Part shown: positions 32,901 through 53,944 of the stretch, one piece after another
How positions within the stretch are numbered: the first letter of the stretch is position 1
Layout of the letters: the number at the start of each line of letters is the position of its first letter
From: Pseudoalteromonas sp. R3
GTDB taxonomy: Bacteria; Pseudomonadota; Gammaproteobacteria; Enterobacterales; Alteromonadaceae
DNA length: 64,000 bases
Assembly (NCBI RefSeq): GCF_004014715.1
Contig: NZ_CP034835.1
Span: 2,976,001 to 3,040,000, forward strand
Direction of reading: 5' to 3'
The notes under the pieces: model-generated
The model's input: only the letters and a program-made list of their open reading frames with translations
Told to the model about the DNA's origin: nothing
Database searches by the model: none
Made by a program: the position numbers and the translations under genes

Positions 32901-33677
32901 AACGCCCTCTGCCACTTCTCCATCCGCGGACACAATAACCGTCGGTGAGACATTCGGTAACGCCAGGATCTGTACCCAATGTGACTCAGATTGTACCCGA
33001 CCATCAATGTGCTCAACATTGACCGTGAAATTCACCCCCAGATTATCCGTCAGATCCGGGGTGCTAACGGTGAGCTCAGGCTTATCTGTATCACTGAGCA
33101 GCAACTCAATTGCTGCATCATGTGTCCAGGTGATCTGCGAGATTTGGCTGACGTCTACAGAAGGCACAACGGTGAGGATAAAATCGGTTTGTTCTGTATA
33201 TGCACTTTCCCCGGTTATCTCAATCGAGAATGGGGCTAATACATTCTTGATAGTCACCGGATAAGTGGCTGTTGCCTGTGAGCCCAGGTTGTCAGTGACG
33301 GTCAGAGATACTGTAATCTGGGTATCTTCATTGACATCTTTAGTTATAATATCGAGCGTCGGGCTGTCTTCACCGCCTAGCTGCAATTCAGAATCAGACT
33401 GATATGACCACGCATAGCGACTAATATGACCATCAGGATCATCAGCAACGGCTGTTAGAGTCAACGTTTCATTTTCGTTGACACTTTGCGCTCCGGCGAT
33501 AGACACTGTCGGTACTCTGTTGCCAGGAGAAACAGTAGACCCGCCGTTGCCTGTTTGAGTGTTTGTTTGGGACCCAGCTGGTGTATCACCACCCCCTCCT
33601 CCACAAGCACTTAGTCCCAAACCCAGCAGCGTGATCACCAAGGACCTTCTCACTACACCAACGATCTTATTTACCAC
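26910..33677 (-). CDS. Giant surface lipoprotein with Ig/PKD-like repeats and C-terminal leucine-rich repeats
   Basis: GTG 33677 is preferred (GTGAGG 9 bases upstream; gives MVNKIVGVVRRSLVITLLGLG-LSAC, Cys25); a TTG at 33716 is the alternative. About 2255 residues. Poly-Gly after the Cys, then five PKD/cadherin-like repeats of about 90 residues (about 55-520), each with a DSDGEI-type turn and YxWSHxS strand. A carboxypeptidase-regulatory-like segment (about 525-600) and a helical region follow, then repeated beta units in which FTWEKQGQQIQITL and LTWELTAQGEIRLY match. Residues about 1790-2255 form irregular leucine-rich repeats of 20-21 residues (L-x-x-L-D-I). Likely adhesion or binding at the cell surface; role unknown. 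Confidence 0.82.
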   Translation of the reverse strand: MVNKIVGVVRRSLVITLLGLGLSACGGGGGDTPAGSQTNTQTGNGGSTVSPGNRVPTVSIAGAQSVNENETLTLTAVADDPDGHISRYAWSYQSDSELQLGGEDSPTLDIITKDVNEDTQITVSLTVTDNLGSQATATYPVTIKNVLAPFSIEITGESAYTEQTDFILTVVPSVDVSQISQITWTHDAAIELLLSDTDKPELTVSTPDLTDNLGVNFTVNVEHIDGRVQSESHWVQILALPNVSPTVIVSADGEVAEGVTFTLAADASDGDGQIVRYFWSYSSELQLVVSDVTERTLQVTAPDIIADKTAHFSVTVEDNQGATATASHSVVVRALPNVAPTAAIQGESTLLEGQQLILTAQASDSDGEIERYSWSHTASVDLVLDTSVEGQLSLSTPDIMLDSTAIVYLEVIDNQGAVTKVAHNIEIKALPNVVPQVNISGPVQASERTVFSLVGDAKDSDGEIVAYQWHHDSNLALILDGSEHASLSVTSPDIQQAQDVTFTLTVTDNQQAQSSYTHLVTIAPNIVELTIQGRVTDAPIPFADVVLEVAQRSFTAQADEQGDYQLTFSVDESEVNALGTLRATDAQTQGRVELVSQLGAVSELQEAAGEDSTLNSDELFDVNVTNVTTAEYALLRRMHSAGFNDANELKEARKHIAAGEKLSIASLLKAVIDHGVALPEGAASTLALAQNAELLAQLTDSLDTEQPALLAQIEEEIKQDNTLVDVSSFSPSGTYYLLETSVVDGFGASIEFKEDHTGSLAGRSLSNFTWEKQGQQIQITLENELDVNTSQFSTRAGFKTTQLTLTIFDSAEHAQAVTLDFVPTQELPQAPDGRISVNAQLFDSRQITQLADDEFIGKWSLLFSDDYSGQRRIRFDMNAGNQSEVFADEPMLSDDGGFKLIGTWYYTRPWEEVRINAPFFNFGFVPVRETEFGYQGLMLSGFDEHRRVVQANLIKYQDISFDDIDYQKMWRQIANKGAQNQFKVDSKDNYHYRWHRDIEGVKENGSLHQYHYEFANQTVAYCDTSQPECEISKVFRHTLLAVHGDHIAVELATDEYNRGDFGISYDISRSIHFYRLSDRDWKLGQFDKSLFKTDRFGQALDHGLGLYYVSDDGVSHIERDSHCPTSPSPAQLCSDTLIINGVEYKARLDGARIELEHLVTEARSYLLIQDESESELVLCHVTEGESCHANNTFRFSYTKPALSISFAIEGLGELSPSTSDYYYGEAFLVAVNVQEGSRLANIEGCNGYLTELQGQAYYRVNNPVADCEINASFIEDFVPTESSLLVDTSAEAIPTGWYYEMTGDNRGVFYGTDTSASFSVTQSEGTSVFTFDDQKKVAVQLNYGELKWVNGFTLTHQGQDVDIRWSASDWQWGKVSMTEVRSVQPSHYLAPLDIGRDNLIGEWSVTSIEHGKTVRLTLNDDHTGVLSRIEPGVGVPSQLTWELTAQGEIRLYGEQSGDSATVKLYEQREGGYAFAVEQVELGGMSSGAKPTWLSYGAGLLVPLKGMTMDDLAGSWRFNLNDSYYGFELYQGGEVRSGRFSGAATAKLDNHQLTVTAFYNRVLRRHDALCSAGRDECQQQTVGSYTVLSFISGRLYVYEHNESGSAGTLVKVDIDPDGKLNGIDYSMRSNNQYYQKTGSSLRKWSFYHQSGYSHGTLLIDDKFPQTKYLVDEQNGLIELLDLSGELVDQYKVIDNDVDSITLCRLTDGQCNPAEHVILYYQPAMVEVAITAPQSVNISSNLTLPYIQYGSHLEVSVSLDWDSGLFVSSFEGCGIEKPKYIFGNGLSFRVDSVTESCDFRITVEQEPESHADRLGITDDYLRGCIDAQSGNYIEYSSELSCYYNRENQPTDLTGLEKLRYLQWLRLENTVLSSDGLRTIEKLTNLKELTIRNGEKDDGVIEMDLANLPSLRTIDLSLGSFGSVTLHNAHSLTKLNISGSDVSELDIAEATGLQTLSASGINATSLDISHNTQLTELDISYSQVLEVVGVTQAHMLESLSAMNSQLNYLDLGQFTHLEKLDIRRTQVAALDITFAQNLVELKASDTPLSVLTLSRESNITLLEIRNVPVTQLNTPFMKKLRKLVATRSMLSSLDLSLNSELSTIWLADAQLTSVIMPEEGGNISTVDLLNNPLTEFIANKLDTDSLVLRGTRLTSLDLTTVKRVDKLIISETNITQVTLPSGLSSLSASRVPMTEFTIPDNSQLDYVVFQHNTLNAIHGLDAFIESGRPLALYLYDTQVDEDLLTRLESIESISILGR

Positions 33678-33713
33678 TATGCAATGCCTCACTTTCAACA
33701 ACAGATATTTGAA

Positions 33714-33743
33714 CAAAAAAGAGGCGATTTTAATTAAATCGCC
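33714..33743 (-). terminator. Rho-independent terminator of the acyltransferase gene
   Basis: GGCGATTT / AAATCGCC stem followed, on the minus strand, by TCTTTTTTG. It lies after the acyltransferase stop and ends just before the giant lipoprotein start, separating the two transcripts. Confidence 0.8.
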
Positions 33744-40916: not shown

Positions 40917-41311
40917 TCAGCTCACATTCAAGGTGAGTAATCGTTGTATACCTAACAGCTCACAGGCCATGCTCGTAAAAACGCCTGCCAGTACCACAAT
41001 CGCTATGTTCCAAACACATAGTACAACACACACAGTGCCAATAGCGGTAATAGAAACGCTAACACGCTTTGAGTTCTTGAACCTGAAAGTCGATTTAAAC
41101 ACAAAATACGAGTGCGGGAGAGAAAATTATAGATATGCTCTGCGCTAAAAAGCATAAAAACGGCACCTGTCACCCACGCCCAAGCAGGTTGCTTTGAGTT
41201 AATAAAAAATACAAAACCCACCAGCATCGAAACACTAATAACTAAAACTGCCGAGCGCAAAATTATGCTATCTACAAGATTCCCGGACCGTGGCATAAAC
41301 TTAACTCTCAT
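40917..41311 (-). pseudogene. Small membrane protein, probably frameshifted
   Basis: From ATG 41311 the frame stops at 41003, but the next frame continues a hydrophobic coding sequence to 40917. One additional base in the AAA run at 41012-41014 (TTT on the coding strand) joins them as LYYVFWNIAIVVLAG and gives about 131 residues with four helices, ending 16 bases before the MAPEG start. The joined protein resembles a small integral membrane protein of unknown family. Confidence 0.5.
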
Positions 41312-41324
41312 TACCTATGATAGA

Positions 41325-41675
41325 TTACGACTCATCCTTTAATAGTGGCAATCCAAGCTTATGTTCCAGATGGGAGAATTGCTGTTTGGTAAAAGGACCG
41401 AACACAAACTCGTTGTGCTCAGCAAACTTATGGTCATTGATCTTATCTATATAAAAGTACGAGCAAGTGCTTGTTGGACAAGCATACACCGAAATATATT
41501 TAGAGTTTGATGAAATAAGCTTTGGCTTATCCAACCGGCCGATAAAACCGCCACCACCGAGCGAGTAACCTAGCGTGTCAGTACCATCGATATAGTAAAC
41601 TTCATATGGCGTCTCTTTCCAACTTGGAGAACAACCGGCAATAGATAACAACGCCAACATTAAAATTACTTTCAA
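41325..41675 (-). CDS. Small lipoprotein of unknown function
   Basis: 116 residues. Lipobox SIAGC (Cys15) after a short signal. The mature part has paired Cys (YACPTSTCSYFY). The start of the next gene lies 13 bases beyond its stop. GGAGGGAGAT precedes the start. No family recognised. Confidence 0.65.
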   Translation of the reverse strand: MKVILMLALLSIAGCSPSWKETPYEVYYIDGTDTLGYSLGGGGFIGRLDKPKLISSNSKYISVYACPTSTCSYFYIDKINDHKFAEHNEFVFGPFTKQQFSHLEHKLGLPLLKDES

Positions 41676-41975
41676 ATATCTCCCTCCATGTTAGCCCCTG
41701 AGGGCTTACCAGATATGCCCGGAAACAACTGTCCTTACCGGCCATTCTTAATACTTTTAACTATGTCAGGCTCTCGCGAGCACTAAACCAACCTGAATCA
41801 CGTTGTGGGTTACAACCCACATTCTGGCATTCCCCGAAAGGTCCATTACAACGTCGCTGTTTATGGAGGAGTTACAAATGCGGGTAACCGAAACACTTTG
41901 CTCGATAGCAACTAAATAAGAGCAGACTAAACATTTATGGTGATCGGTTGACGACTTAGTCCTTTGCAGCGCACG
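41676..41975. other. Cassette junction with IS10-like fragment and palindrome
   Basis: Holds, in cassette direction, a possible attC end (CCTCAGGGGCTAAC just before the lipoprotein gene), a 18-base palindrome TGTGGGTT-AC-AACCCACA at 41804-41821, and a short fragment of the IS10-like transposase sequence (GAAACACTTTGCTCGATAGC at about 41889). A degraded attC plus insertion relic is the likely explanation. Confidence 0.4.
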
Positions 41976-42424
41976 CTACTTGATGATTTCTGCACGCCCA
42001 AATGTTAAACAAACCTCAGTTTCCCACATCACGGATACTTCTACGGAAAAGTTTTCTCGCTCTATAACCTCAAACACTCCTTCATATAGTGGTTTGCTTG
42101 ATATCCAGTCTATTGCTTTTTCCCAAGCGCTATTCAGAACTATTTCCTCGCGAATAACGCTTTGTGGTAAGCACGACAGCAGCGTCCCGTCACTAAGAGT
42201 TTCTTCTCTACAGTTTTTATCTGAATCATCAGAAGAGTAGATTAAAGTAACAGTTGGCCAGCCACTAGAATTTTTAACGAGCCGCGGAACTGAGAGTTTA
42301 TACGTATTTTCACCCTGCTGCTTTTCAATTTTAATTAACGCATCATATTCCTCTCCTTGTTCTGGAAACATGCAAGCGCAGGAAGAAACATGAATATCAA
42401 AGGCGCACTAGAAAATTTAATCAT
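41976..42424 (-). pseudogene. Exported protein of unknown function, frameshifted in its signal region
   Basis: The open frame from ATG 42371 encodes a soluble domain but no signal. In the adjacent frame, ATG 42424 opens a typical signal peptide (MIKFSSAPLIFMFLPALAC). One extra base in the AAA run at 42366-42368 joins them as ALACFPEQGEEYDALIKIE, giving about 149 residues with a possible lipidated Cys. Unknown family; a cassette gene. Confidence 0.6.
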
Positions 42425-42516
42425 ACAGAGATAACACCTTGGTAGGATTAATAAAATAGTAGATATGCCGAACGAGAACTAGGTACAGGCCTGTTTTTTC
42501 TCATTACTCAATGGCA

Positions 42517-42897
42517 TTACTTGGTGTTTTTTAACCAAAGTTCATCAGACTTAAATGCATACATAAAAACAGGGTAAAGCATGAACAGTAGTAAGGCGAA
42601 TGAGCCTGTTGAAAATACAAGCTGCACAACACTAAAATGCTGAATAGTAAAAGCAACACCGAAAATAAGAGTGAAGCCACCAGGCACTACTGCAGTGAAT
42701 ACAAATATGGCAATCGCTATGGCTTTACTCCCAATTGCCACATTGAAAGCATACCCATACAAGGGGATTAGTAAAATACCTGACACAATGAGGGATACGA
42801 AATTACTAAGATCAACATTCTCTTTAAATGGCAGGCCAATTAGCTCACTCACAGTAACAAATGCTGCAAAGCCGAAAAGAAGTTGCCATTTTTTCAT
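42517..42897 (-). CDS. Membrane protein of unknown function
   Basis: Start ATG 42897 (GAGAG 7 bases upstream); 126 residues with four helices (about 5-22, 32-52, 58-80, 90-115). Ends in polar SDELWLKNTK. No family recognised. Cassette-like position. Confidence 0.6.
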   Translation of the reverse strand: MKKWQLLFGFAAFVTVSELIGLPFKENVDLSNFVSLIVSGILLIPLYGYAFNVAIGSKAIAIAIFVFTAVVPGGFTLIFGVAFTIQHFSVVQLVFSTGSFALLLFMLYPVFMYAFKSDELWLKNTK

Positions 42898-42971
42898 AAA
42901 CATACTCTCAATTTTAAATACTGAAGCCTCGGGAATTCCAAGAAACTAGCTATAGACGCCATAGTCTATTG

Positions 42972-43295
42972 TTACAGTTGTATATTTGAAAAGGATTCGG
43001 GTCCCGACGACCATCTTAAACATACCAAGTCGTTTTCCTTAAATATTAGTTGATAGAAGCCACCCTCTCTTTTGTAAGCCCAAACTTCGATCTCTTGCAA
43101 AGAGTTTACAGAGCATGTCGCCGGGACAATCCCTCTAATTTGAAAGTTTGGCGCAGTAAACTCTTCACGTTCAGTGGGGTTACCCAATTGTTCTAAAATC
43201 AGACTCATTGAGCCGCTAGTCTCTCCGACCAGTTTGAATGTGCTTGCATGCAAGCTAACTGAGACTAAAAGATTCATTAAAACCAGAAAATTCAT
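42972..43295 (-). CDS. Small exported protein, unknown function
   Basis: 107 residues with a signal peptide ending near SLHAS (about 18). Mature part is beta-rich with two Cys (ATCSVN, DLVCLRW). Stop codon lies in TGTAACAATAGAC, similar to the start of an attC site. No family recognised. Confidence 0.58.
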   Translation of the reverse strand: MNFLVLMNLLVSVSLHASTFKLVGETSGSMSLILEQLGNPTEREEFTAPNFQIRGIVPATCSVNSLQEIEVWAYKREGGFYQLIFKENDLVCLRWSSGPESFSNIQL

Positions 43296-43314
43296 GCCTG
43301 ACCTCTCAATACAT

Positions 43315-43400
43315 TAATACTGGCAACCGAAACTTTGCTCGATACCTATCAGTTTGGCTTACCAAGCCGGGGCTAAATATGAAGAGCCCTACCGTTACTC
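43315..43400 (+). mobile_element. Fragment of IS10/IS4-like transposase sequence
   Basis: CTGGCAACCGAAACTTTGCTCGATACC and, further on, AAATATGAAGAGCCCT match the corresponding parts of the better copies at 46.7 and 49.5 kb (in those, LLD...LTELGRN-MKGP is encoded). No ends or coding capacity remain. Confidence 0.5.
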
Positions 43401-43470
43401 AACGCCCTATGTCATTCCAGCAACACCGACCATGCAAGTACTAAATTGGTATGTGAGGTGCGCTATTATT
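43400..43470 (-). other. Candidate attC site
   Basis: In cassette direction it starts AATAGCGCACC at the stop of the 43466 gene and ends CATAGGGCGTTGAG. About 70 bases, weakly palindromic. Followed directly by an insertion fragment. Confidence 0.4.
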
Positions 43471-43834
43471 GATGTATATATTTGCCATTATTATCAACGA
43501 AAACCACGCCTCTGACTGTATACCTTTCACTCTTTAACCAAGCCAGTGTTGTGAACTCAATCAGGTCGCCTTGATTAGTAGAGCTTATCCATTTTGATGG
43601 AAACGTAACGACTTTCTCGTAATGCGCTTTAGGTGTAATGCCCAACTTACCAATATTCTTACTTTCAATTGCACGCACCTGGGTGGTGGTTCCATTAATC
43701 ACTACAAAGCAAACAGTGTTTTTATCTTTGTTGCAATAAGCTTGAGCACCGTTATCGGCACGCCACAGCATGTTTTCAGCCACTCCTAGGGATGTCAAAG
43801 TCCCAAGTAACAGTGTAATTAACGGATTATTCAT
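43466..43834 (-). CDS. Small exported protein, unknown function
   Basis: 122 residues with signal peptide about 1-19 (ends GVAEN). Two Cys (AYCNKD, VCFVV) may form a disulfide. Stop overlaps the start of a candidate attC. No family recognised. Confidence 0.6.
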   Translation of the reverse strand: MNNPLITLLLGTLTSLGVAENMLWRADNGAQAYCNKDKNTVCFVVINGTTTQVRAIESKNIGKLGITPKAHYEKVVTFPSKWISSTNQGDLIEFTTLAWLKSERYTVRGVVFVDNNGKYIHQ

Positions 43835-43839
43835 AGCTC

Positions 43840-43935
43840 CAAACGCATTACTACTGGGTGTATAGGTGCCTGGCTAAAATTAACTACCCTGGAATGAAAG
43901 CCAAGCGTTTTGCATCCTTTTGAGCCCTTGTCAGC
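43840..43935 (-). other. Candidate attC site
   Basis: In cassette direction it begins GGCTGACAAGGGCTCAAAAG (the TGA is the stop of the 43931 gene) and ends AATGCGTTTGG. The internal part GGATGCAAAACGC...TTAATTTTAGCCAGGCACC resembles the site at 47708-47813 (GGACGCAAAACAGC...CTAATTTTAGCCTGCC). Confidence 0.5.
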
Positions 43936-44463
43936 CGTCCTGTCCAAGTTCGACCTCGGCTTCATCAATGAGTGTAAAATACCCTTCCTTATCATCGAGT
44001 TGAAGCGAAATTGAAATATGAACAGTTTGCCTTTCTTGTGGTTCTTCGTTGAAACCAGCACCGATAGAGAAAGAAATTTTTTGTTGTGTTTCTTGTGACA
44101 ATAAATTTTGCGTTTTCAGGAAATTGTTGACTGCGAGCTCCGACAGCCTGAATGTGTATTCAGTTTTTGCAGGTTCAGATGAAAAGAAGCCTTCTTGCGC
44201 ATCTATCCTATCCTGTTTTTCGAGAATGAGTGGAAACGTAAAATGACTAACCCCTTTTTCATTCTCTAAACTGAGACTTAGATTCATTTTTTCCATGTTT
44301 AAGGTAAAAGGTTTGGATACCTTAACTTTCGAGCGTATTTGCGAAGGGTTTAACGCAGTAAAACTCTGTTCGTCAAAGTTGCGATATTTAAGCATGGTCG
44401 AGATCGGAATGCTCGAGCAGCCAAATAGACATAGTGCTACAAAAACTAAAAAAGCTTTTTCAT
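43931..44463 (-). pseudogene. Lipoprotein of unknown function, start region frameshifted
   Basis: AAGGAGAGGTT stands before ATG 44463, but that frame stops after five codons. Adding one base to the five-A run (T run 44456-44460 on the plus strand) gives MKKAFLVFVALCLFGCSS, a perfect lipoprotein signal, in frame with the following 160 residues. Mature part is beta-rich with predicted SLSLENEKG and FRLSELAVNNFL segments. Unknown family; cassette gene. An upstream non-ATG start in the intact frame is the less likely alternative. Confidence 0.65.
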
Positions 44464-44494
44464 AACCTCTCCTTGATTTGCGATTAACGCTCTG

Positions 44495-44690
44495 CTTTGA
44501 AGAATCCCTCAAATATTTGTATTTATAGTCTATATGTTAGATACATACAGCCTTATTTAATCTAGTTTATGTAGCCAAAACTAGCCAGATAACACCCCAA
44601 GCGTGTGCTATCCTCCTACACGATATGCTCAGAAAAAACTGTCTTCAAATCAGCCTGGCGCCTTCGTTCATTCAAGCAGGCTTTGTTTTG
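44495..44690 (+). mobile_element. Truncated IS10-like element inside an attC site
   Basis: Begins with CTTTGAAGAATCCCTCAAAT, like the left end of the 49.3 kb copy, and retains the stretch ending ACACGATATGCTCAGAAAAAACTG (44618-44641). The bases just left, in cassette direction GCAGAGCGTTAATC, look like the 3' half of an attC, and the bases right (GGTAAGAGC) like its start. Confidence 0.55.
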
Positions 44691-44693
44691 CTC

Positions 44694-45073
44694 TTACCGA
44701 AGTGAGCGTAGTATTGATCTTTGACAGTTACTATCACCGTAGTACACCGCCACTTCAAAATTCTCAATTGCTTCTTTGTAACCACTGATAATAGAACTCG
44801 CAATGGCTCCTTTAACTTCATAAGCCAAAGGAACCCAGAAGTTTGCTACCTCTCCTTCAGTAAGCTCCATCCCTGATAAGTACATCCCTGCCAACTCAAT
44901 TGGTGCTTGAATAATGATTTTATCCATATGCTCGTGATTCCCCCAGCTGCAGTGCCAGCGGGAATATGTTTCACATCCAATTCAAGCGCTGCTGCCTGTT
45001 GTGAAGAAGAACACTGCGCCCAAACGGTTGAGTTAGCAAGTAGTAAAAGAGTAAAAGCAAATAACTTATTCAT
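44694..45073 (-). pseudogene. Exported protein of unknown function, frameshifted
   Basis: From ATG 45073 a signal peptide (MNKLFAFTLLLLANSTVWA) and mature N-terminus are read; the frame then breaks. Adding one base to the C5 run at 44940-44944 restores AGTAAGGNHEHMDKIIIQAP and a protein of about 126 residues ending at 44694. The C-terminus runs into an attC-like start. Unknown family; cassette gene. Confidence 0.6.
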
Positions 45074-45113
45074 AGTGCATAATGCGTGCATCAGTGTTGA
45101 CCGCACATGTTAG
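45074..45113 (-). other. Possible short attC remnant
   Basis: In cassette direction ATCTAACATGTGCGG...CACGCATTATGC; only about 40 bases, below the usual attC length, but its core-like ends and the stop codon inside TCTAACA fit the pattern of the array. Confidence 0.3.
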
Positions 45114-45835
45114 ATGCCTTTACTCGCATATTGTTGCACTATGCCTGCCCAGGTTTTCTCAATTTCTGGCAGCAGTTTTTGAAAAGCCGCTTTTTCTGTT
45201 GTGACTCGCATATCATCTACAGCATCAGATGTGCCCCAAATGCTTGCGTTTTTACTCTCTCGTGCTGTTGCTTCAGACAAACCGAATAAATACTCTGTAC
45301 GTACATCAAAAAATGCAGCGGATACCGTGGTTGTAACCGAAACTTCTTTGTTCTTAAGAAAGCCAAGTGAAATGACGTTTAACGGAGCAAATTTTTGCTC
45401 GCCTGCATGAAAGGAAGTATCAAAGGTATATATAAGCAGAATGTCCGTTTTTAAGCGCGCTGAAGCTTCGCGGAGTGATTTGATTGAATCCAGGTTTGTT
45501 GGCAGTAAAATTCTGTTTAACGGGGCAATGCCTTGAATTTGAGGAAGCTCGGAAAGCTTTCTGAAATCATCTTCGGACTCCACTTCACGTGTTGTAACCA
45601 CGCTATATCGACCATGACCAAAGCTATTTAATTTGTATGATTGATATCCGGGCGCCTGGACTCGTGCCACTGATAGTCTCGCAGGAAAAGAAGCCGCCGG
45701 TTCTTTTGACATTAACTCATTGATGTCTGCGTCTGCCAAATTGCTAAGCTGCACACCACCACCCGGAGTGGTATAGGACGCACAACCACCTAAGGCCAAC
45801 AACAGGAATAATATTGTCATTCTATTTTTTTTCAT
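45110..45835 (-). CDS. Lipoprotein of unknown function
   Basis: Start ATG 45835 (GGAG 6 bases upstream); 241 residues. Lipobox LGGC (Cys18). The mature part includes ADINELMSKEPAASFP, YSVVTTREVESEDDF and a helix-rich C-terminus (TTEKAAFQKLLPEIEKTW). Similar 230-250 residue lipoproteins occur in gammaproteobacteria, but I cannot assign a named family. Stop lies in the attC-like TCTAACA. Confidence 0.65.
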   Translation of the reverse strand: MKKNRMTILFLLLALGGCASYTTPGGGVQLSNLADADINELMSKEPAASFPARLSVARVQAPGYQSYKLNSFGHGRYSVVTTREVESEDDFRKLSELPQIQGIAPLNRILLPTNLDSIKSLREASARLKTDILLIYTFDTSFHAGEQKFAPLNVISLGFLKNKEVSVTTTVSAAFFDVRTEYLFGLSEATARESKNASIWGTSDAVDDMRVTTEKAAFQKLLPEIEKTWAGIVQQYASKGI

Positions 45836-45887
45836 GTGGACTCCAAAATATCCATTTTTGTGGTATTGGACGTCGGCATAAACATTC

Positions 45888-45960
45888 ATTAACAGCGGAC
45901 TTTAATGTCAAACGAAGTGGAACTAACCAGCTGTTACGAATCCGACTAAGTTTTGTTAAT
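45888..45960 (-). other. attC recombination site
   Basis: In cassette direction AATTAACAAAACTTAGTCGGATT...AAAGTCCGCTGTTAAT, about 73 bases. The TAA of the upstream cassette gene (45956) is in the first core, and the next gene follows shortly after the second. Ends are mutually complementary. Confidence 0.65.
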
Positions 45961-46546
45961 TGCCGCTTACACTGTAGCGCCAGTCTTCATTGATATTTTG
46001 TTCACCAATATCCAAATAGTGCTTTAAGTCAACCCCAAGAAAAAGGTACTCCATCGAGTGCGGCTTAAAAAATAGCTTGTCTTTATGAGAAATGCCACTT
46101 TCCTTTAGCTGACTATAACCCTTATGTTTTTTTACTCTCATATTAGTGATATTAAATATTGATTCGTTCCAGGATACTTTAAAACCTTCCCACTCCTCAA
46201 TTTTAGAGTCACCAAGTACAACTTTCTTATTTGCACTACCCTCTCCAAAATATTGGACAGTAATTTCAGGCGTTTTTGATTTTTTATTTACACCTAAGCC
46301 GAGCAATATTCCGGCCGTTTTTTCCTTATTCCAAAGTCGGTACATAGCCCCGGACTCAGCGCTACTATCCATATCAAATTTACTCACAACAAGGTGAAAA
46401 GAGAAAAAGCACTCATTTATACAATTAATGCTGAATGGAAGAATTTCTGCCTGCCCTGGCTTCAGGCTATGTTCAGATGGAATTAACATGGACTTAGAGT
46501 AGGCGTTTAGGGATAAAACAAACGCCAAAAACAGTATATATCGCAT
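45956..46546 (-). CDS. Exported protein of unknown function
   Basis: 196 residues with a signal peptide about 1-17 (NAYS). Two Cys (INCINECFF). The mature domain seems beta-rich (FHLVVSKFDMD, VTVQYFGEG-like). Stop is in the TTAACAAAAC core of the attC. GGAGAGAT precedes the start. No family recognised. Confidence 0.62.
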   Translation of the reverse strand: MRYILFLAFVLSLNAYSKSMLIPSEHSLKPGQAEILPFSINCINECFFSFHLVVSKFDMDSSAESGAMYRLWNKEKTAGILLGLGVNKKSKTPEITVQYFGEGSANKKVVLGDSKIEEWEGFKVSWNESIFNITNMRVKKHKGYSQLKESGISHKDKLFFKPHSMEYLFLGVDLKHYLDIGEQNINEDWRYSVSGN

Positions 46547-46578
46547 ATCTCTCCCTAGGCATTTACCACCGCAACCTC

Positions 46579-47072
46579 AAGCCGTCGGATACTTGTTTTT
46601 CAAGTTAACATGATGAACAAACGGACTTGTTTAGTCAAACTGATACAGAAAAAAACAAACCAGATAACAACACCATGCGTGATATCACTATCCTACACGA
46701 TATGCTCAGAAAAAACTGCCTCCAAATTCATGCTCAGTGCCTTGACTCATTAATCCCAACAACTGAAACTTTGCTCGATAGCAACCAACTCTTACTTACA
46801 GAGCTGGGTCGAAATATTAAGGGCCCTGTCGCAGCCAAGCGCAATTTCAGGCGTTTGGTTTAGCAACTTGGCAGCATCGCCATGTATAACGACCAACTTG
46901 CTATTTACCGCTTCCATACACGTGATATGTGGTGCTAATCTCAAACCGACCTTGCAGGTCGACTATCAGGCTTGGCAAAAAGGTTAGGTTCAAGCGATTA
47001 TGTTATGAAGGAAGGCAATTGCGCTAAATTAAATGCATACACCAATGTAATTTTATAACCACATGTTGTCAG
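46579..47072 (+). mobile_element. IS10/IS4-like deletion derivative, copy B, inserted in an attC
   Basis: About 494 bases. An intact short frame (46675-46863) encodes MRDITILHDMLRKNC, LLLTELGRN and GPVAAKRNFRRL, matching the N-terminus of the Tn10/IS10 transposase (DILHDSL, LTLTELGRN, KHNIKR); after a stop, QLGSIAMYNDQLAIYRFH continues the homology, and GLAKRLGSSDYVMKEGN is from farther downstream. The right end ACATGTTGTCAG aligns with that of copy A. The flanks look like attC halves. Non-functional. Confidence 0.7.
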
Positions 47073-47078
47073 AAAACG

Positions 47079-47699
47079 CTAAACTAAAGGCGTCTTTTTG
47101 AGCAACTTGTTGTTAGCCATTTTCTCGACCCAAGTGCCATCCTGATCTTTTGTAAATATACGCTCACCTTTACCTGTCTTAATGACAAAATTATTATTTC
47201 CTTGCCACTGTGCGCAATTTACTAAATCCAAGACTACGATCTTAGTTTCAATTTTTTGCTTAACAATAAAAGCCGCCTCTGCATCGCCATGAGCTTCCAA
47301 GATATTGAGACTCAGTGTTTTTTCTTTGTAATTGTTCCAATATGTGTGAATCACTTCTAGCCCATCAGGGGATAATTTTTTCAATGGGTTTACTTTTTCC
47401 CATGAACCATCGGGTTGATTTACGAAAAGTACTGGCCCTATATCGCTACTTCTTAATAGTAATTCTGAATTATTTAACCACTCGATAGACCAATGTTGGA
47501 AATCACTAGCCCCAGTATTAACCGTATATAAATTTTCGCCACCTGCATCCAGTATTGAAAGAACTAATATTCCTGAGTCACTCCGAACGGAGGCCTCACG
47601 ATTTTCATCTGGCGAAGTAATACGTGTTTCTCCAGAACAACCAATCAATTTAGTCGATGCTAATAAGACAAAAATTAACGTTAAAATTCTAAATTTCAT
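47079..47699 (-). CDS. Lipoprotein of unknown function
   Basis: Start ATG 47699 (the longer frame runs through the upstream attC); 206 residues. Lipobox LIGC (Cys20). Mature part contains TSPDENREASVRSDSG, WSIEWLNNSELLLRSSD and GERIFTKDQDGTWVEKM, resembling small strand-repeat domains. Its attC is interrupted by the insertion element beyond the stop. No family recognised. Confidence 0.65.
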   Translation of the reverse strand: MKFRILTLIFVLLASTKLIGCSGETRITSPDENREASVRSDSGILVLSILDAGGENLYTVNTGASDFQHWSIEWLNNSELLLRSSDIGPVLFVNQPDGSWEKVNPLKKLSPDGLEVIHTYWNNYKEKTLSLNILEAHGDAEAAFIVKQKIETKIVVLDLVNCAQWQGNNNFVIKTGKGERIFTKDQDGTWVEKMANNKLLKKTPLV

Positions 47700-47707
47700 A
47701 ACTAAAT

Positions 47708-47813
47708 GGTTAGCGCCTAGCTTAACCGGCGCAAAATGGCAGGCTAAAATTAGCGACGAAGGAGCGCAGCCTGCTGTTTTGCGTCCTTTGTGGTTAAAGC
47801 GTGTGCTATATGC
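47708..47813 (-). other. attC recombination site
   Basis: In cassette direction TATAGCACACGCTTTAACC...GGTTAAGCTAGGCGCTAAC, about 105 bases. GGTTAA/TTAACC and AGGACGCAAAA/TTTTGCGCC arms pair. Located between the stop of the 47818 gene and the start of the lipoprotein gene. Confidence 0.7.
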
Positions 47814-47817
47814 CGAT

Positions 47818-48120
47818 TTACTCAAATGCTAGTTTGTAAATAGCATACAGGGGTAAAACTACACCCCAGAGAAATACAACAAAGGGAACAATAAAACCCC
47901 ATATGCCTTTTACTTCTGTAGGTTCAGTTTGCTCCCAGTTTTGTTCGGTAAAAGCAACAACGCCGAAGTCACTTTTAAACCTGTCAGCTACCTCTACACA
48001 TTCAGTTTCTAGAGCATCATCGATGGCATGTTTTAAGGCAAGAAGTCCCTCTCGATTTCCAACAATAGCATCGTCCCATGCTTCATCGTCGTATATTTTT
48101 ACCCATGGCTGGTTATTCAC
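47818..48120 (-). CDS. Small protein with C-terminal membrane helix
   Basis: 100 residues. DEAWDDAIVGNREGLLALKHAIDDAL begins a soluble domain of about 65 residues; a single membrane helix (about 72-95) ends in YAIYKLAFE. The N-terminal part resembles the Imm-like or DUF-type acidic helix-rich small proteins found in cassettes, but I recognise no family. AAGGAAAACTGA precedes the start. Confidence 0.58.
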   Translation of the reverse strand: MNNQPWVKIYDDEAWDDAIVGNREGLLALKHAIDDALETECVEVADRFKSDFGVVAFTEQNWEQTEPTEVKGIWGFIVPFVVFLWGVVLPLYAIYKLAFE

Positions 48121-48138
48121 TCAGTTTTCCTTAAACAT

Positions 48139-48198
48139 ATAACGCCTTAAGTGGAGACGCGCGTTTTTTGCGCGTCCTGCAGGTTTAACTTGTTATAA
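48139..48198 (-). other. attC recombination site (best example)
   Basis: In cassette direction TTATAACAAGTTAAACC, then GGACGCGC-AAAAAA-CGCGCGTCT, then CACTTAAGGCGTTAT; about 60 bases. The start TAACAAG and end GGCGTTA match the Vibrio-type attC ends, and the GACGCGC/GCGCGTC arms pair perfectly. The C-terminus of the upstream cassette gene is encoded inside it. Confidence 0.82.
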
Positions 48199-48725
48199 CG
48201 TAGCTTGCAAATAACTAGATAAGCAATGCCCGACAGTAAGCCTGTTAAGCCACCTAAATAACTGGCATTGTGCATAAAACCTACACGAACAAATTGTACG
48301 GGATCAGATACGCCTGGCCTTATCCATTGTATGTATTGTGATACTGTTTGTTCGTTGACCTGATAGTAACCTAATGCAAGACCAGCAAAACCAGTTAAAA
48401 GCGCTACAACTATTACAACTAAAAATGATTTGCTTAGACTTCTTACCATTTGCCTCGGTGAATTGAACATGAAGCCGAAAAAGCCTAAGACAATAAAAAC
48501 TAAAATACCCATCCACCATGTGGCTAAGGCGCCCACATAAGCAGCCCCCAAACGTGGAGCTTCATACGCCCAGGGGATGCCGAATTGCTTAAACTTGAAT
48601 TGGGTAAAGTACTCTTCTGAAAATGTATAACTTATTTGGTCGTGCAGCATGCCATAAATGCCAGCTACAACAGCTGCCAAAATAAGCATTAGAAAGTAAA
48701 CACCTATTTTTTGGATTTTTCTCAT
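48147..48725 (-). CDS. Four-helix membrane protein, unknown function
   Basis: 192 residues with helices at about 8-27, 53-80, 87-115 and 150-172. MYGMLHDQISYTFSEEYFTQFKFKQF is an exposed loop after the first helix (this motif type is seen in membrane proteins of unknown function in gammaproteobacteria). Residues about 178-192 (NLQDAQKTRVST) are encoded by the attC site, so the C-terminus was set by cassette formation. Confidence 0.65.
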   Translation of the reverse strand: MRKIQKIGVYFLMLILAAVVAGIYGMLHDQISYTFSEEYFTQFKFKQFGIPWAYEAPRLGAAYVGALATWWMGILVFIVLGFFGFMFNSPRQMVRSLSKSFLVVIVVALLTGFAGLALGYYQVNEQTVSQYIQWIRPGVSDPVQFVRVGFMHNASYLGGLTGLLSGIAYLVICKLRYNKLNLQDAQKTRVST

Positions 48726-48739
48726 ACATTCTCTACTTT

Positions 48740-48841
48740 ATAGCGCCCCAATAAGCGGCTAATAATAGCTTGCTAAAATTGTAATGCGAAGCGAAGCCGA
48801 ACAAGCTGTTAGCTGCCCCATAGCCTTAATGGCTTGTTATA
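48740..48841 (-). other. attC recombination site
   Basis: In cassette direction TATAACAAGCCATTAAGGC...GCCGCTTATTGGGGCGCTATA, about 100 bases. Internal arms GCTAACAGCTTG / CAAGCTATTATTAGC pair around a GCTTCGCTTCGC loop. The stop of the 48837 gene is the TAA of the first core. Confidence 0.78.
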
Positions 48842-49265
48842 CGCCAATTACATAATGCACCTGAAATTTTATATTTTCTTTTTTTGTATTGATAGAACTT
48901 ATCTGAGCAACATTATCATAAATTTTTTGAAGGAATTCAGAGGGAAAATTACCTTGATACTTTAATGTTGTAGCGAAACGCTCTGAACTTTTTATTTCAA
49001 CTTGCAGAAGTAATTCACCTTGCGCAGGTGACTTATAACTGTTTTTTACTGCGGTCTCCAGTTCTTTGATAAAGCCACTTAATGCTTTAATCGTTAGGTT
49101 TTTACCTATCACACTTTCATGTGTTAGTAATTCTATACTTTTAACTATAACTGGGCCTGTTTGTGGCAGTACACCGCCTTTAGGTGTATGAATATGAGTT
49201 GATGTATTTTGAGCTAACGAATAAAAGGGAAACAATAAAATTATTAGAACTAAAAGTTTACGCAT
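48837..49265 (-). CDS. Exported protein of unknown function
   Basis: 142 residues with a signal peptide about 1-18 (FYSLAQ). The mature part (KSPAQGELLLQVEIKSSERFATTLKYQG) has alternating strands reminiscent of a small TonB-C-like alpha/beta fold; this is only a resemblance. Stop within an attC core; AAGGAAAATTC precedes the ATG. Confidence 0.62.
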   Translation of the reverse strand: MRKLLVLIILLFPFYSLAQNTSTHIHTPKGGVLPQTGPVIVKSIELLTHESVIGKNLTIKALSGFIKELETAVKNSYKSPAQGELLLQVEIKSSERFATTLKYQGNFPSEFLQKIYDNVAQISSINTKKENIKFQVHYVIGV

Positions 49266-49280
49266 GAATTTTCCTTGGCG

Positions 49281-49294
49281 TATAACGCCCGCAT
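49281..49294 (-). other. 3' half of the attC split by the insertion
   Basis: In cassette direction ATGCGGGCGTTATA, the second core of the attC whose first part lies at 49777-49866. The insertion element separates the halves. Confidence 0.6.
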
Positions 49295-49776
49295 CTGAGG
49301 AATCCCCAGATAATCATATTTAAAATCAATGTGATGGACACGCACAGCATTGTTTTATCTAATTTATTTCGCCAAAAACCAAATAGATAACAACACCATG
49401 CGTGATATCACTATCCTACACGATATGCTCAGAAAAAACTGCCCCAAATTCATGCTCGGCGCCTTGATCCGTTAATGCTGGCAACTGAGACTTTGCTCGA
49501 TTGCGATCTACATCCACCTGCAGAGCTGGACCGAAATATGAAGGGCCCTGTCGCAGCCAAGCACAACATTAAACGTATGGGCCGACTGCTTGGCAACGAA
49601 AGTTCAAAGTACATACAATCAAGGCTCGTGCATTGCTGTCTACTGCCAGACTTGGTAAAGAGGTTAGGTGACGAAACGATTATGCTATGACGGGAAAACA
49701 ATTATACTGGGCTATACTCGAATACGTACGCTTGATTCATCAGCTTGGAGAGTTCAATTATGAGGAAGTCCCTCAG
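49295..49776 (+). mobile_element. IS10/IS4-like deletion derivative, copy A, inserted in an attC
   Basis: 482 bases. Left end CTGAGGAATCCCCAGATAAT is very close to the IS10 outside end as remembered (CTGATGAATCCCC...); the right end is its inverted partner, CTGAGGGACTTCCTCATAAT on the minus strand. Inside: MRDITILHDMLRKNC frameshifted, then LLATETLLDC, AELDRNMKGPVAAKHNIKRMGRLLGN and KRLGDETIML. Most of the transposase is deleted, so it is MITE-like. It splits the attC of the 49861 cassette; the 9-base flanks are similar only in part. Confidence 0.75.
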
Positions 49777-49866
49777 CGCCGTGCTAAGGGGAAAGTTTGG
49801 CGAAAATTACTAAGGTTCGAACGACAAACCAAACTTTTGTGTGCTCTCTTGAGCATCTTGTTAGTA
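49777..49866 (-). other. 5' part of attC interrupted by the insertion
   Basis: In cassette direction CTAACAAGATGCTCAAGAGAGC...CCCTTAGCACGGCG, then the insertion, then ATGCGGGCGTTA. The start is strikingly like Vibrio repeats (TAACAAACGCCTCAAGAGGG). The TAA of the 49861 gene is in the first core. Confidence 0.75.
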
Positions 49867-50241
49867 TGGCAACCCACAGAGTTTTATTACAATTACATTT
49901 GCCACTCTATATTTGCCTTGAACCCAATACCCCTTTGTACCAACCTTTAAACGATTGCGATGAAATTCTCGCATTTCATCAGACAAAATCCACATATTTG
50001 CTGTACCTTTGAGTGGTGCACTTCCCGGGGTTGTATCTTCTATAACTTGCCCGTTTTCATCGAGTAACTCTGGCCAAATCATGTAAATTCCATCTACTTC
50101 TGGATCATCACCATGATATAAGAAATCTGTTCTCATATCTTGATGAGGTTTAGCATTTTTTATATCGTCACAAAGATCAATTTCATATCTGACAATAAAA
50201 TCGGGTTGTCTATTTTGAATATCTTCGTACGGTGAATGCAT
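49861..50241 (-). CDS. Soluble cassette protein of unknown function
   Basis: 126 residues, no signal or membrane helix, acidic N-terminus (YEDIQNRQPDFIVRYEIDLCDD). Contains FLYHGDDPEVDGIYMIWPELLDENG and a basic C-terminal half (MREFHRNRLKVGTKGYWVQG). Probably the most recently acquired or upstream-most cassette seen. AAGGAATAGT precedes the ATG. No family recognised. Confidence 0.62.
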   Translation of the reverse strand: MHSPYEDIQNRQPDFIVRYEIDLCDDIKNAKPHQDMRTDFLYHGDDPEVDGIYMIWPELLDENGQVIEDTTPGSAPLKGTANMWILSDEMREFHRNRLKVGTKGYWVQGKYRVANVIVIKLCGLPY

Positions 50242-50257
50242 ACTATTCCTTACTCAT

Positions 50258-50332
50258 GCTAACGCTTTAGCATTAATGCGTACGCAGTACACATAACCGC
50301 TTGTTGAACTGGGCCGTTACCTACAGGCCGTA
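50258..50332 (-). other. Candidate attC or array boundary site
   Basis: In cassette direction GGTAACGGCCCAGTTCAACAAGCGG...ATGCTAAAGCGTTAGC. The last core AGCGTTAGC is good; the start is less clear (TAACGGCC at 50315 or CAACAAGC at 50308). No cassette gene is visible upstream of it, so it may be an orphan attC. Confidence 0.5.
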
Positions 50333-50848
50333 TTACGCTATAGGAATTTGCTTTTGAGGAGTAACTTTTGTTTTCAACCATTTGTGACTTAAACCGTTAC
50401 AACGTGACTCATTCCCTGCCCGAACAACGTTATTTATACGTATTATTAAACCACTTTTTTCCTATTTGGCAAGGTGTTATGATTTCGACATAGCATGACT
50501 TACTCCCCCTTGCATCTTGCATCTTGCATTGGCAAAGTCGTCTCACCGCTATATTCATTTGTCAAGAAACACTTATACGGCCAGATTAGTAGTGGCTATA
50601 ACGAAACACAACTGAGTGGTGCTAAGGTAGACCCCCGGCTCGCAAGCGTCCGGGATAACATACGACTCGTCTATATAAGGAAAAATAAGGAAAAAACGCG
50701 CGGTGTATAGGTAGAGCGCGACTCACGAGCCGTCTGGGATGAAGGAGCTATTTGTTTGGTTTGCTTTTAACGAGGCACTACGGTGTAGTCAGTTGGCTTG
50801 CCCTGCCCTACTCAATAAAACGTTGAGTAGGGCAGTTTCTAACATGCA
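50333..50848. other. Gene-free gap beside the array: no integrase; dispersed repeat and stem-loop
   Basis: This is where an integron integrase would be expected for minus-strand cassettes, but no such coding sequence is present. Bases about 50625-50750 carry two pieces of the dispersed palindromic repeat (GACCCCCGGCTCGCAAGCGTCCGGGAT; GACTCACGAGCCGTCTGGGATGA). CTGCCCTACTCAA / TTGAGTAGGGCAG at 50801-50834 is a strong stem-loop just after the stop of the sphingomyelinase-like gene. Confidence 0.55.
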
Positions 50849-51847
50849 TTAAAACTCAAAGTTAACTTGTACCGGGTAGTGATCTGATAATTCGTTATAG
50901 TAGCCATTGTGATAGTAACGGCCGTCGCTTAAACGCCAGTTGCCACGCAGGTAGCTCCAGTACCAGTTTTGTTGTGCTTTTGGATAACGTACTGTCATGC
51001 TTGGCGCATTGCTGGGTTGTTTGTGGTCACTATGCCAGAAAACGTAATCCAGTGTGTCGTTATAATCCAGACTGTAGTCAAAGTAATATGCATTGGCCTT
51101 GGTGAACCAGTTATGTTTTGCCGGGAATGATCCTACCTCTGGCGTCTGAAAGTTTAATTGCGCACGCGCTGTTGCAAGCATATCCGCTACTTCCAGCTGC
51201 TTACTCCACTCCACGTTCATATCACCACCAATGATAACAGGCTCGCTGGCAGGAATATTTTCTGCCTCAATAAATGACTGAATTTCATTTAGCTGGCCCA
51301 TACGTACGCGGTGCTCTTGTGCCGTATCGCCGTCATGTGTGGCTTGTAAATGCGTGCCTATCAGGTGATAGCGTTGGTTGCCTTTTTCTATTTCTACGTA
51401 GGCAAATCCTTTATTTGCCAGATAATCCCAGCTACCACTCAGACTGCTGTGAAATACGTGTGCTTTTTGCTTGAGGATTGGATACTTAGACAAGATCACC
51501 ACACCACCACGGATCACAAACGGGCTGTTTGAACAATTACCCGTTAAACCATCCCAGCCGCTGCCGCTACAATCCAGTCCGACGTTAGGTGTCTGGTAGG
51601 GGTAAATCGCAGACAATGCAGCAAGCGCCTGCTCTGCATCACTGTTAAAGGCCTCGCTTATCAGGATCACATCCGGGCTGTCACTCAACGAGGTCAGCAC
51701 ACTGGGCAAACGCTCTGCCCGGTTTTGCTGGTCCCAGTCTTGTACATTGAGTTGCATAATGTTGTAGGCCATGACTTTGAGTGAATCGGCCATACTGTGT
51801 GTACTCAACAGCATCAGTGCACAAAGCACCAGGTGCTTAACTTTCAT
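50849..51847 (-). CDS. Secreted sphingomyelinase C-like phosphodiesterase (EEP superfamily)
   Basis: 332 residues; signal peptide about 1-20 (HSMA). Key motifs: KVMAYNIMQL (Asn metal site), ISEAF (Glu metal ligand), LIGTHLQA, GGDMNVEW and the terminal SDHYPVQVNFEF with catalytic His. Cys pair in VGLDCSGSGWDGLTGNCSNS. The organisation and the YWSYLRGNWRLSDGRYYHNG aromatic strand resemble bacterial neutral sphingomyelinases (beta-haemolysin group). Likely a secreted enzyme that attacks host or detrital sphingomyelin. Confidence 0.8.
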   Translation of the reverse strand: MKVKHLVLCALMLLSTHSMADSLKVMAYNIMQLNVQDWDQQNRAERLPSVLTSLSDSPDVILISEAFNSDAEQALAALSAIYPYQTPNVGLDCSGSGWDGLTGNCSNSPFVIRGGVVILSKYPILKQKAHVFHSSLSGSWDYLANKGFAYVEIEKGNQRYHLIGTHLQATHDGDTAQEHRVRMGQLNEIQSFIEAENIPASEPVIIGGDMNVEWSKQLEVADMLATARAQLNFQTPEVGSFPAKHNWFTKANAYYFDYSLDYNDTLDYVFWHSDHKQPSNAPSMTVRYPKAQQNWYWSYLRGNWRLSDGRYYHNGYYNELSDHYPVQVNFEF

Positions 51848-53830: not shown

Positions 53831-53944
53831 GGGTGGCAGTCTTACCAGCCACATCCCGGCACACGAGTCATTCGCTGTGGCTGCTTCCTTCCGGACCTGA
53901 CCAGGTTCACGAACTATCGTTGCGAGAGGACCAATAAGACTACC
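53831..53944 (-). ncRNA. ffs: 4.5S RNA, signal recognition particle RNA
   Basis: On the minus strand the apical region GGTCAGGTCCGGAAGGAAGC and the 3' side CGTGTGCCGGGATGTGGCTGG are almost the same as in Escherichia coli 4.5S RNA; the 5' GGTAGTCTTA pairs with TAAGACTGCC at the 3' end. Length about 114. A weak terminator (CAAAC-GTTTG then TTTCTC) follows. Works with Ffh in membrane targeting. Confidence 0.95.

Follow-up and report, generated by a model that had tools for sequence, protein, structure and literature searches.

A degraded integrase-less cassette array in Pseudoalteromonas sp. R3 and the insertion sequences at its attC crossovers

Introduction

How should a run of short genes, all on one strand and separated by palindromic junctions, be understood when no integrase gene lies beside it? 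The question is raised by a 64,000-base stretch of Pseudoalteromonas sp. R3 (C2:2976001-3040000, contig NZ_CP034835.1; hereafter the window), taken from a genome of two contigs, C1 and C2, totalling 5.82 Mb. Clusters of attC sites lacking integron-integrases (CALINs) are often met, but how they arose is in most cases a matter of guesswork. The results presented here indicate that window positions 40917-50570, minus strand, with the head at the high-coordinate end, are a degraded CALIN of the Pseudoalteromonas chromosomal-integron type. The whole explanation, which includes capture of the cassettes by the integrase IntI, later losses and the splitting of attC sites by insertion sequences (ISs), is given a probability of about 0.93. 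Taken alone, the array is an ordinary CALIN of a known kind and is largely immobile; it is the parasites that give it unusual value.

Results

A sequence-only reading of the window had proposed about fifteen small minus-strand genes with attC-like junctions and no integrase. The listing of open reading frames (ORFs) gives 14 or 15 small ORFs spanning 41003-50241, all on the minus strand. Homology of the junctions to attC was examined with a covariance model (R1) built from 23 hand-chosen attC sites at 14 loci near intI matches in other Pseudoalteromonas genomes, with none from this genome. The sites were picked from a pattern-and-fold list from which overlapping or doubtful candidates, one long site and one duplicate were dropped; at two of the training loci (L064 and L067) intI has an in-frame stop. 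The R1 alignment contains 30 base pairs, and in 23 of them both partners have changed in one sequence or more. On the window, R1 gave seven matches at E<=10, all within 43846-49865 and on the expected strand, with none outside the array. As a control, five 20-kb pieces from largely array-free parts of this chromosome (L044, L045, L047-L049) gave nothing at E<=0.1.

Four of the sites match at E<=2.2e-6 inside 2.2 kb. The strongest, 47709..47810 (65.7 bits, E 8.3e-18), has decayed cores, GCGCTA at 47714 and TATAGC on the left, and 48739..48841 (50.2 bits, E 7.4e-13) has a right core decayed to GCGCTA at 48744. The 60-base site at 48138..48197 (32.8 bits, E 2.7e-7) keeps both cores, with GCGTTA at 48143. 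The fourth, 49772..49865 (30.0 bits, E 2.2e-6), is the left part of an attC parted from its right core, which lies beyond an IS at 49281..49294 (ATGCGGGCG/TTATA; a slash marks the junction). The sequence-only reading had joined 49777-49866 to 49281-49294 as one junction, and comparison of the IS ends bears this out: they are the halves of one attC around a 482-base IS relic at 49295-49776, with the IS junction at 49777. Weaker matches mark a decayed attC at 43846..43935 (20.3 bits, E 0.0027) and another at 45888..45960 (16.4 bits, E 0.05); the latter had been placed among the best sites, and its centre is recognisable, giving a partial match at 45890-45936, but it is decayed. The match at 47072-47114 (11.5 bits, E 1.8) is not significant. 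The sites have the AAC and GTT cores, paired arms and loop region that characterise attC, intact at 48138-48197 and partly decayed in the others. The GCGTTA-like ends noted earlier persist at the cassette ends 48143, 49286, 44488 and 50263, and have been lost at 48744 and 47714.

A cluster of at least two attC sites is therefore present, and no match to TIGR02249 or PF00589 was found anywhere in the window, in agreement with the sequence-only reading. The features of a complete integron are lacking: there is no intact intI in the genome and no attI block in the window.

Direct-repeat analysis and blastn show that the repeated sequences within the array all derive from one IS, of which they are relics. 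The relic within the split attC (49295..49776) lies at the attC crossover and matches a 1347-base copy at 80% and 87% identity over its two ends. Further minus-strand relics lie at 46588..47025 (direct repeats and blastn), 44498..44681 (a right end, with junction AGCAGAGCG/TTAATC) and 43288..43343, the last two recognised by end matches; a probable faint relic lies at 41640..41740 (direct-repeat families D3 and D6). The 1347-base copy, C2:2553114-2554460, encodes a DDE_Tnp_1 transposase of the IS4 family, and a copy in genome G059 with an open frame scores 374.6 bits to the IS4 model NF033591 (cut-off 152). The element belongs to the IS10 group. Its transposase (G059 open copy) is approximately 51% identical to that of IS10R/ISVsa5, with which it shares similar ends and nine duplicated bases. 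At C2:2062672, 15 of 20 end bases of the terminal inverted repeats agree and the target is duplicated exactly (9/9; TTTGCGGCG), as it is at C2:2489103 (ATTGCGGCG). Imperfect duplications at some copies may be due to recombination between copies.

The location of these copies points to the crossover of attC. The genome has 18 IS end-matches, and 16 of them are no more than about 2 kb away from an attC match. The outlying two are C2:2437441, approximately 4 kb from a decayed attI block and with no attC match in its locus (L146), and C1:820203, a 46-base match whose junction also reads GCG/TTA. A lone R1 match, C2:3332473, lies beside IS copies. In a count over 73 loci, with eight clade genomes among the sources, 27 of 36 distinct right junctions read GCG/TTA after nine target bases and eight differ by one or two letters; the remaining one, TTTTGAACT/TAA, belongs to a copy in this genome and is located 16 bases beyond the core of an attC. 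At 11 of 13 copies the left flank has GCG as its last bases. GCG/TTA is the attC crossover, G/TT. The hexamer GCGTTA is common, with 35 occurrences in the 108 kb of strand that lie beyond the array and 47 in 200 kb of control strand (once per 3-4 kb), and therefore fails by itself to explain where the IS is found. The many junctions support the conclusion that the element prefers the attC crossover, as judged from the sequences of its insertion sites.

The main alternative is that the element, like its wider group, prefers GCG-like target ends rather than attC, and that its copies survive mainly in the arrays, which are dispensable. The target consensus of IS10 ends in GCN. Relatives outside the clade bear on this alternative from both sides. 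An order-wide search found the transposase at E<=1e-60 in 42 of 394 genomes, this one included. At 15 loci in other genera (L176-L190, 51-68% identity), targets end GCG or GTG at 14 and GCA at L187; right ends were placed in 13, those of L187 and L190 by eye, and nine of the 13 continue TTA, the exceptions being L179, L181, L187 and L190. Independent attC matches at E<=0.1 occur at five of the 15. The sequences of L179 and L181, at GCG without a following TTA, favour a GCG preference, as do the copy of this genome at TTTTGAACT/TAA and a copy on a Glaciecola plasmid (64% identity), both sides of which end GCG, followed by TCC (CCCTAGGCG/TCC), with no attC match within 3 kb. On the IS10R side, two of seven targets (L191-L197) also end GCG: L194, and L191, which lies inside an attC. 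Among more distant loci, L199, L201, L202 and L204, with ends placed, have no target ending GCG; the left flank of L203 ends GCG and its right end could not be placed, nor could the ends of L198 and L200. Since GCG is found on the IS10R side too, the wider group shares it in part, and what sets the new group apart is the following TTA, which turns GCG into attC. TTA follows the target in nine of 13 new-group relatives as against none of the 10 loci with a placed right end among the eleven IS10R-side and more distant loci. In addition, the stretches near attC that hold 16 of the 18 end-matches make up an estimated 1% of the genome, whereas GCGTTA occurs once per 3-4 kb. A preference for GCG without attC is therefore considered unlikely, and preference for the attC crossover is retained.

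In a tree of the transposases, for which 32 loci were offered and 11 without a suitable ORF were left out, a branch with support 100/100 separates the 15 new-group rows from the IS10R rows. The tree's three label changes overstate the scatter, as L186, L187 and L190 had been labelled non-core before their junctions were read. The IS10R-like element of L191 (genome G327) lies within its attC-like site, but not at the crossover TTA.

Members of the genus usually have an integron integrase: among 80 genomes sampled, an intI match at E<=1e-40 is present in 66, 59 of 80 exceed the cut-off, and 14 of 80 have none at E<=1e-40. The search for intI elsewhere in the genome, which had been suggested with the sequence-only reading, returned fragments only as non-Xer matches to the profile. 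The best relic, C2:1150353-1151019, lies 1.87 Mb from the array in two pieces of 213 and 107 bits (cut-off 265). The intI of G033 shares approximately 97% and 88% identity with the two fragments of this broken intI (L017:5339-6032, C2:1150338-1151031). The broken gene lies beside genes that we take to be gcvH-gcvP and is followed by its own first cassettes; an attC beside it scores 37 bits with R1 when scored separately and is absent from the whole-genome list. A second candidate, C2:2549730-2550471, was rejected as intI, being the broken recombinase of an IS91 element. At L018:3120-3424, an attC-like junction is apparently split by a fragment resembling the REP (repetitive extragenic palindromic)-associated tyrosine transposase gene of L017.

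The array is one of several. At least 32 R1 matches at E<=10 and at least six attC clusters were found in the whole genome, a lower bound because 150 of 1439 first candidates were scored. C2 holds clusters at 2.06, 2.48-2.50, 2.54-2.56 and 2.70 Mb besides the one in the window (3.02 Mb), and C1 holds one at 1.00-1.01 Mb. Those outside the window (C2:2059379-2065115, C2:2484884-2504100, C2:2542798-2558634, C2:2698807-2701073 and C1:1003581-1007331) also lack intI, and several have attI blocks or IS91 3' ends.

Comparison with relatives indicates that the locus is old. On its head side the array is flanked by an endonuclease/exonuclease/phosphatase gene (50849..51847, minus strand), which adjoins arrays in the Pseudoalteromonas rubra clade and whose nearest named relatives are in two P. 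rubra strains and Pseudoalteromonas sp. XMcav2-N (96-97% identity), which marks the host as P. rubra-like; an AraC gene flanks the other side. In genome G044, one contig carries cassettes c6-c10 and c12 and parts of c11 in the order seen here, along with c13, c14 and a MAPEG gene, and c5 lies beside the endonuclease gene on another contig; c1-c4 were not found in the two G044 stretches compared. A relative thus keeps most of the same cassettes in the same order. A lack of attC matches together with full synteny in relatives had been named as evidence that would overturn the array; attC matches are present, and synteny is largely conserved with the exception of c1-c4. Such conservation is what would be expected of a CALIN that is old and frozen, and not of a distal integron still active; the low E values and missing intI support the earlier proposal.

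The sister loci retain what the window has lost. In G059 and G078, both two-contig genomes, the endonuclease gene is followed by an attC array, and the AraC gene is on the other contig. An attI block of about 312 bases lies between the endonuclease gene and the array in G059, G033, G041 (at a contig end) and G078. These blocks are 77-90% identical to those that adjoin intI in G059 (type 2) and in G078 (where intI is broken), with the similarity ending slightly short of the intI start. No intI was found at the loci of G059, G033 and G078, three of the four, the G041 locus (L023) lying outside the search; the search used 15 query proteins, of which 11 are intI and four (L052, L054, L062, L067) are neighbouring genes. 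Since four sisters carry attI without a detected intI, we infer that IntI acted on the locus in trans or was lost early. The block was not found in the window, nor in the G036 and G044 stretches. Elsewhere in this genome attI blocks lie at C2:2503802, 2500512 and 2700774, the last together with about 90 bases from the start of intI; a further block, at 2441056, is decayed. Between the endonuclease gene and attI in G059 (L075:6080-6900), intergenic palindromes are repeated (CATCCCGGACGCTTGCGAGCCGGGAT).

Alternatively, the array could be the distal part of one large superintegron, severed from its intI end by rearrangement and never possessing its own attI. In its favour, the five C2 clusters with at least two matches share a strand, save for one match of the 2.06-Mb cluster. 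The attI block at C2:2503802 also resembles the region upstream of the G059 endonuclease locus (75% over 727 bases), which suggests exchange between loci. However, the attI block is kept at the same endonuclease locus in four relatives, and two more clusters of this genome start at an attI block (C2:2500512 and C2:2700774). A severed superintegron is thus not the probable origin, and a separate CALIN that lost its attI is preferred. That the stretch holds lineage-specific short genes with unrelated palindromic (REP or terminator) repeats between them and no integron is very improbable: the small ORFs do lack Pfam matches above cut-off, but the junctions match in both structure and sequence a model trained beside intI, and 47712-47808 is 87-92% identical (part or whole) to three attC of another cluster (L046).

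The head of the array is a relic of a second mobile element. The sequence 50260..50570 (minus strand) ends AAAGCG/TTAGC and is 81% identical over 50262-50560 to the 3' end of an element that is assigned to the IS91 family by its sequence; the window holds this end alone. The G059 copy encodes an IS91 transposase (NF033538, 373.3 bits, cut-off 125) and a tyrosine recombinase of 279 aa with 171.7 bits to TIGR02249, below the cut-off of 265. The recurrent 320-base repeat had been considered as an integrase-bearing cassette, which was rejected because the G059 copy is an IS91 element. The recombinase is found in 14 of 80 genus genomes (E<=1e-40). All 16 complete left junctions read G/TTGAAC, and the 20 distinct right junctions abut TTA in 16 cases, TCA in two, TTG in one and neither in one. 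On the left the element is flanked by an attI block twice in G059, in one case with intI about 0.3 kb away, and by an intI-side block in one of the two G064 copies (L169). At L164, L165, L166, L170, L171 and L173 a stretch of 36 to about 160 bases of the left flank resembles intI-side sequence, while the second G064 copy and the copy in this genome (L018) have an attC there. The left flank of L172 matched no attI, intI-side or attC sequence. Of 13 loci examined at length, nine have attC matches after the element; L167, L168, L170 and L173 have none. The element with its IntI-like recombinase recurs at attI or attC crossovers. The same layout occurs on a P. arctica plasmid and on the Vibrio parahaemolyticus plasmid pVPS62 (L207, NZ_KX957971.1 95948-104766), where an annotated arr gene and an attC match come after the element with its recombinase. 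PLSDB types plasmid pVPS62 as conjugative. Immediately to the left of the window, C2:2973200-2975931 (L149) holds two decayed IS91 3' ends and no attC match.

The cassette ORFs lie on the minus strand as follows: c1 (126 aa, 49861..50241), without a Pfam match; c2 (142 aa, 48837..49265), whose stop lies inside the attC left core; c3 (192 aa, 48147..48725), with sub-threshold Pfam matches only; c4 (100 aa, 47818..48120); c5 (206 aa, 47079..47699); c6 (196 aa, 45956..46546); c7 (241 aa, 45110..45835); c8 (43931..44512); c9 (43466..43834); and c10 (42972..43295). Cassette-like ORFs follow at 42517..42897 (c11, about half matched in G044) and 41976..42371 (c12). The last ORFs, c13 and c14 (41003..41660), are cassette or flank; R1 found no attC beside them in the window. 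The ratio of nonsynonymous to synonymous substitution (dN/dS) against G044, which rests on few changes (11 to 23 per cassette), is 0.89 for c5, 0.43 for c6, 0.05 for c7, 0.59 for c8, 1.02 for c9, 0.09 for c10 and 0.34 for c12; it is 0.35 for c13 and 0.07-0.18 for four flanking genes. Most compared cassettes look weakly constrained, and two (c7 and c10) do not. No family scored above cut-off for ten cassette proteins searched with Pfam and PADLOC or for four further array ORFs searched with Pfam, and no cassette function is claimed for this reason. Elsewhere in the window, an ORF of 2268 aa with PKD domains lies at 26910-33716 (minus strand), and the only Rfam match at gathering scores is a bacterial small signal recognition particle RNA at 53840-53936 (minus strand; RF00169, 77.7 bits).

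Discussion

The results are best accommodated by the following history. An IntI acting on these attC sites would once have captured the cassettes, at a locus that probably had its own attI and on which IntI would have worked in trans or from which it would have been lost early. In this lineage attI has disappeared, the genome's integrase is broken, most right cores are mutated or split, and the order is largely frozen; the succession of these losses is inferred. The IS10-group element, inserting with nine duplicated target bases at the IntI cut point of attC, accounts for part of the core splitting, and selection of attC by the transposase itself, as opposed to survival in a neutral array, seems likely. 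The IS91 element with its recombinase sat at the head, where its 3' end remains.

Several points weigh against this history. Only four attC in the window pass E 1e-4, and several cassette junctions, including those around c10-c14, have no recognisable attC. Genomes share some of the IS copies through common descent, and the 36 junctions therefore represent fewer than 36 independent insertions.

The array resembles the CALINs and sedentary chromosomal arrays described with IntegronFinder 2.0 in having at least two attC, small cassettes and no nearby intI (PMC9024848). It differs in that an attI still heads the array in relatives where no intI was detected, and in that point change or IS insertion has cost most sites their right core.

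Insertion at the integron crossover point is a specialisation of DEDD IS1111 elements and of group II introns, and Tetu and Holmes (2008) and Post and Hall reportedly described the IS1111-attC insertion sequences. Members of this type, such as ISKpn4 and ISPst6, target cassette attC at one end and have a DEDD transposase of the IS110/IS1111 type guided by a seekRNA (PMC11187229). The IS10-group element differs in having an IS4-family DDE_Tnp_1 transposase, inverted repeats and nine duplicated bases, and so lies outside that type. It is set apart from the IS10R side by TTA: no IS10R-side locus whose right end could be placed has TTA after the target. In the literature covered, no title or opening of an abstract described an IS4 or IS10 element targeting attC; most subscription journals were outside this coverage, and absence from print is not established. 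In Shewanella, the IS91-like element ISShvi3 forms a cassette in an integron, and the same paper reports that no IS interrupts attC sites in that genus (PMC9229058); what recurs in Pseudoalteromonas is an IS91 element that carries a tyrosine recombinase.

It is conceivable, though doubtful, that the IS91 element is a mobile replacement for intI, occupying attI, ending at G/TT in a 3' hairpin like that of attC or attI, and capturing cassettes with its own recombinase. Replacement of IntI by this recombinase is speculation. If it were true, some CALINs, including this one in the past, would have been headed by a second kind of integron platform, which would be present on chromosomes and plasmids of Pseudoalteromonas and Vibrio.

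Conclusions

The history of a CALIN is here partly traceable, from a fixed locus, through attI without a detected intI in sister genomes, to loss of attI, decay of cores and a frozen order. The junctions suggest a DDE insertion sequence specialised on the integron crossover point, and give a handle on whether a transposase reads the sequence of attC or its folded hairpin. Because insertion at the crossover should hinder cassette excision, such elements may contribute to arrays ceasing to move.

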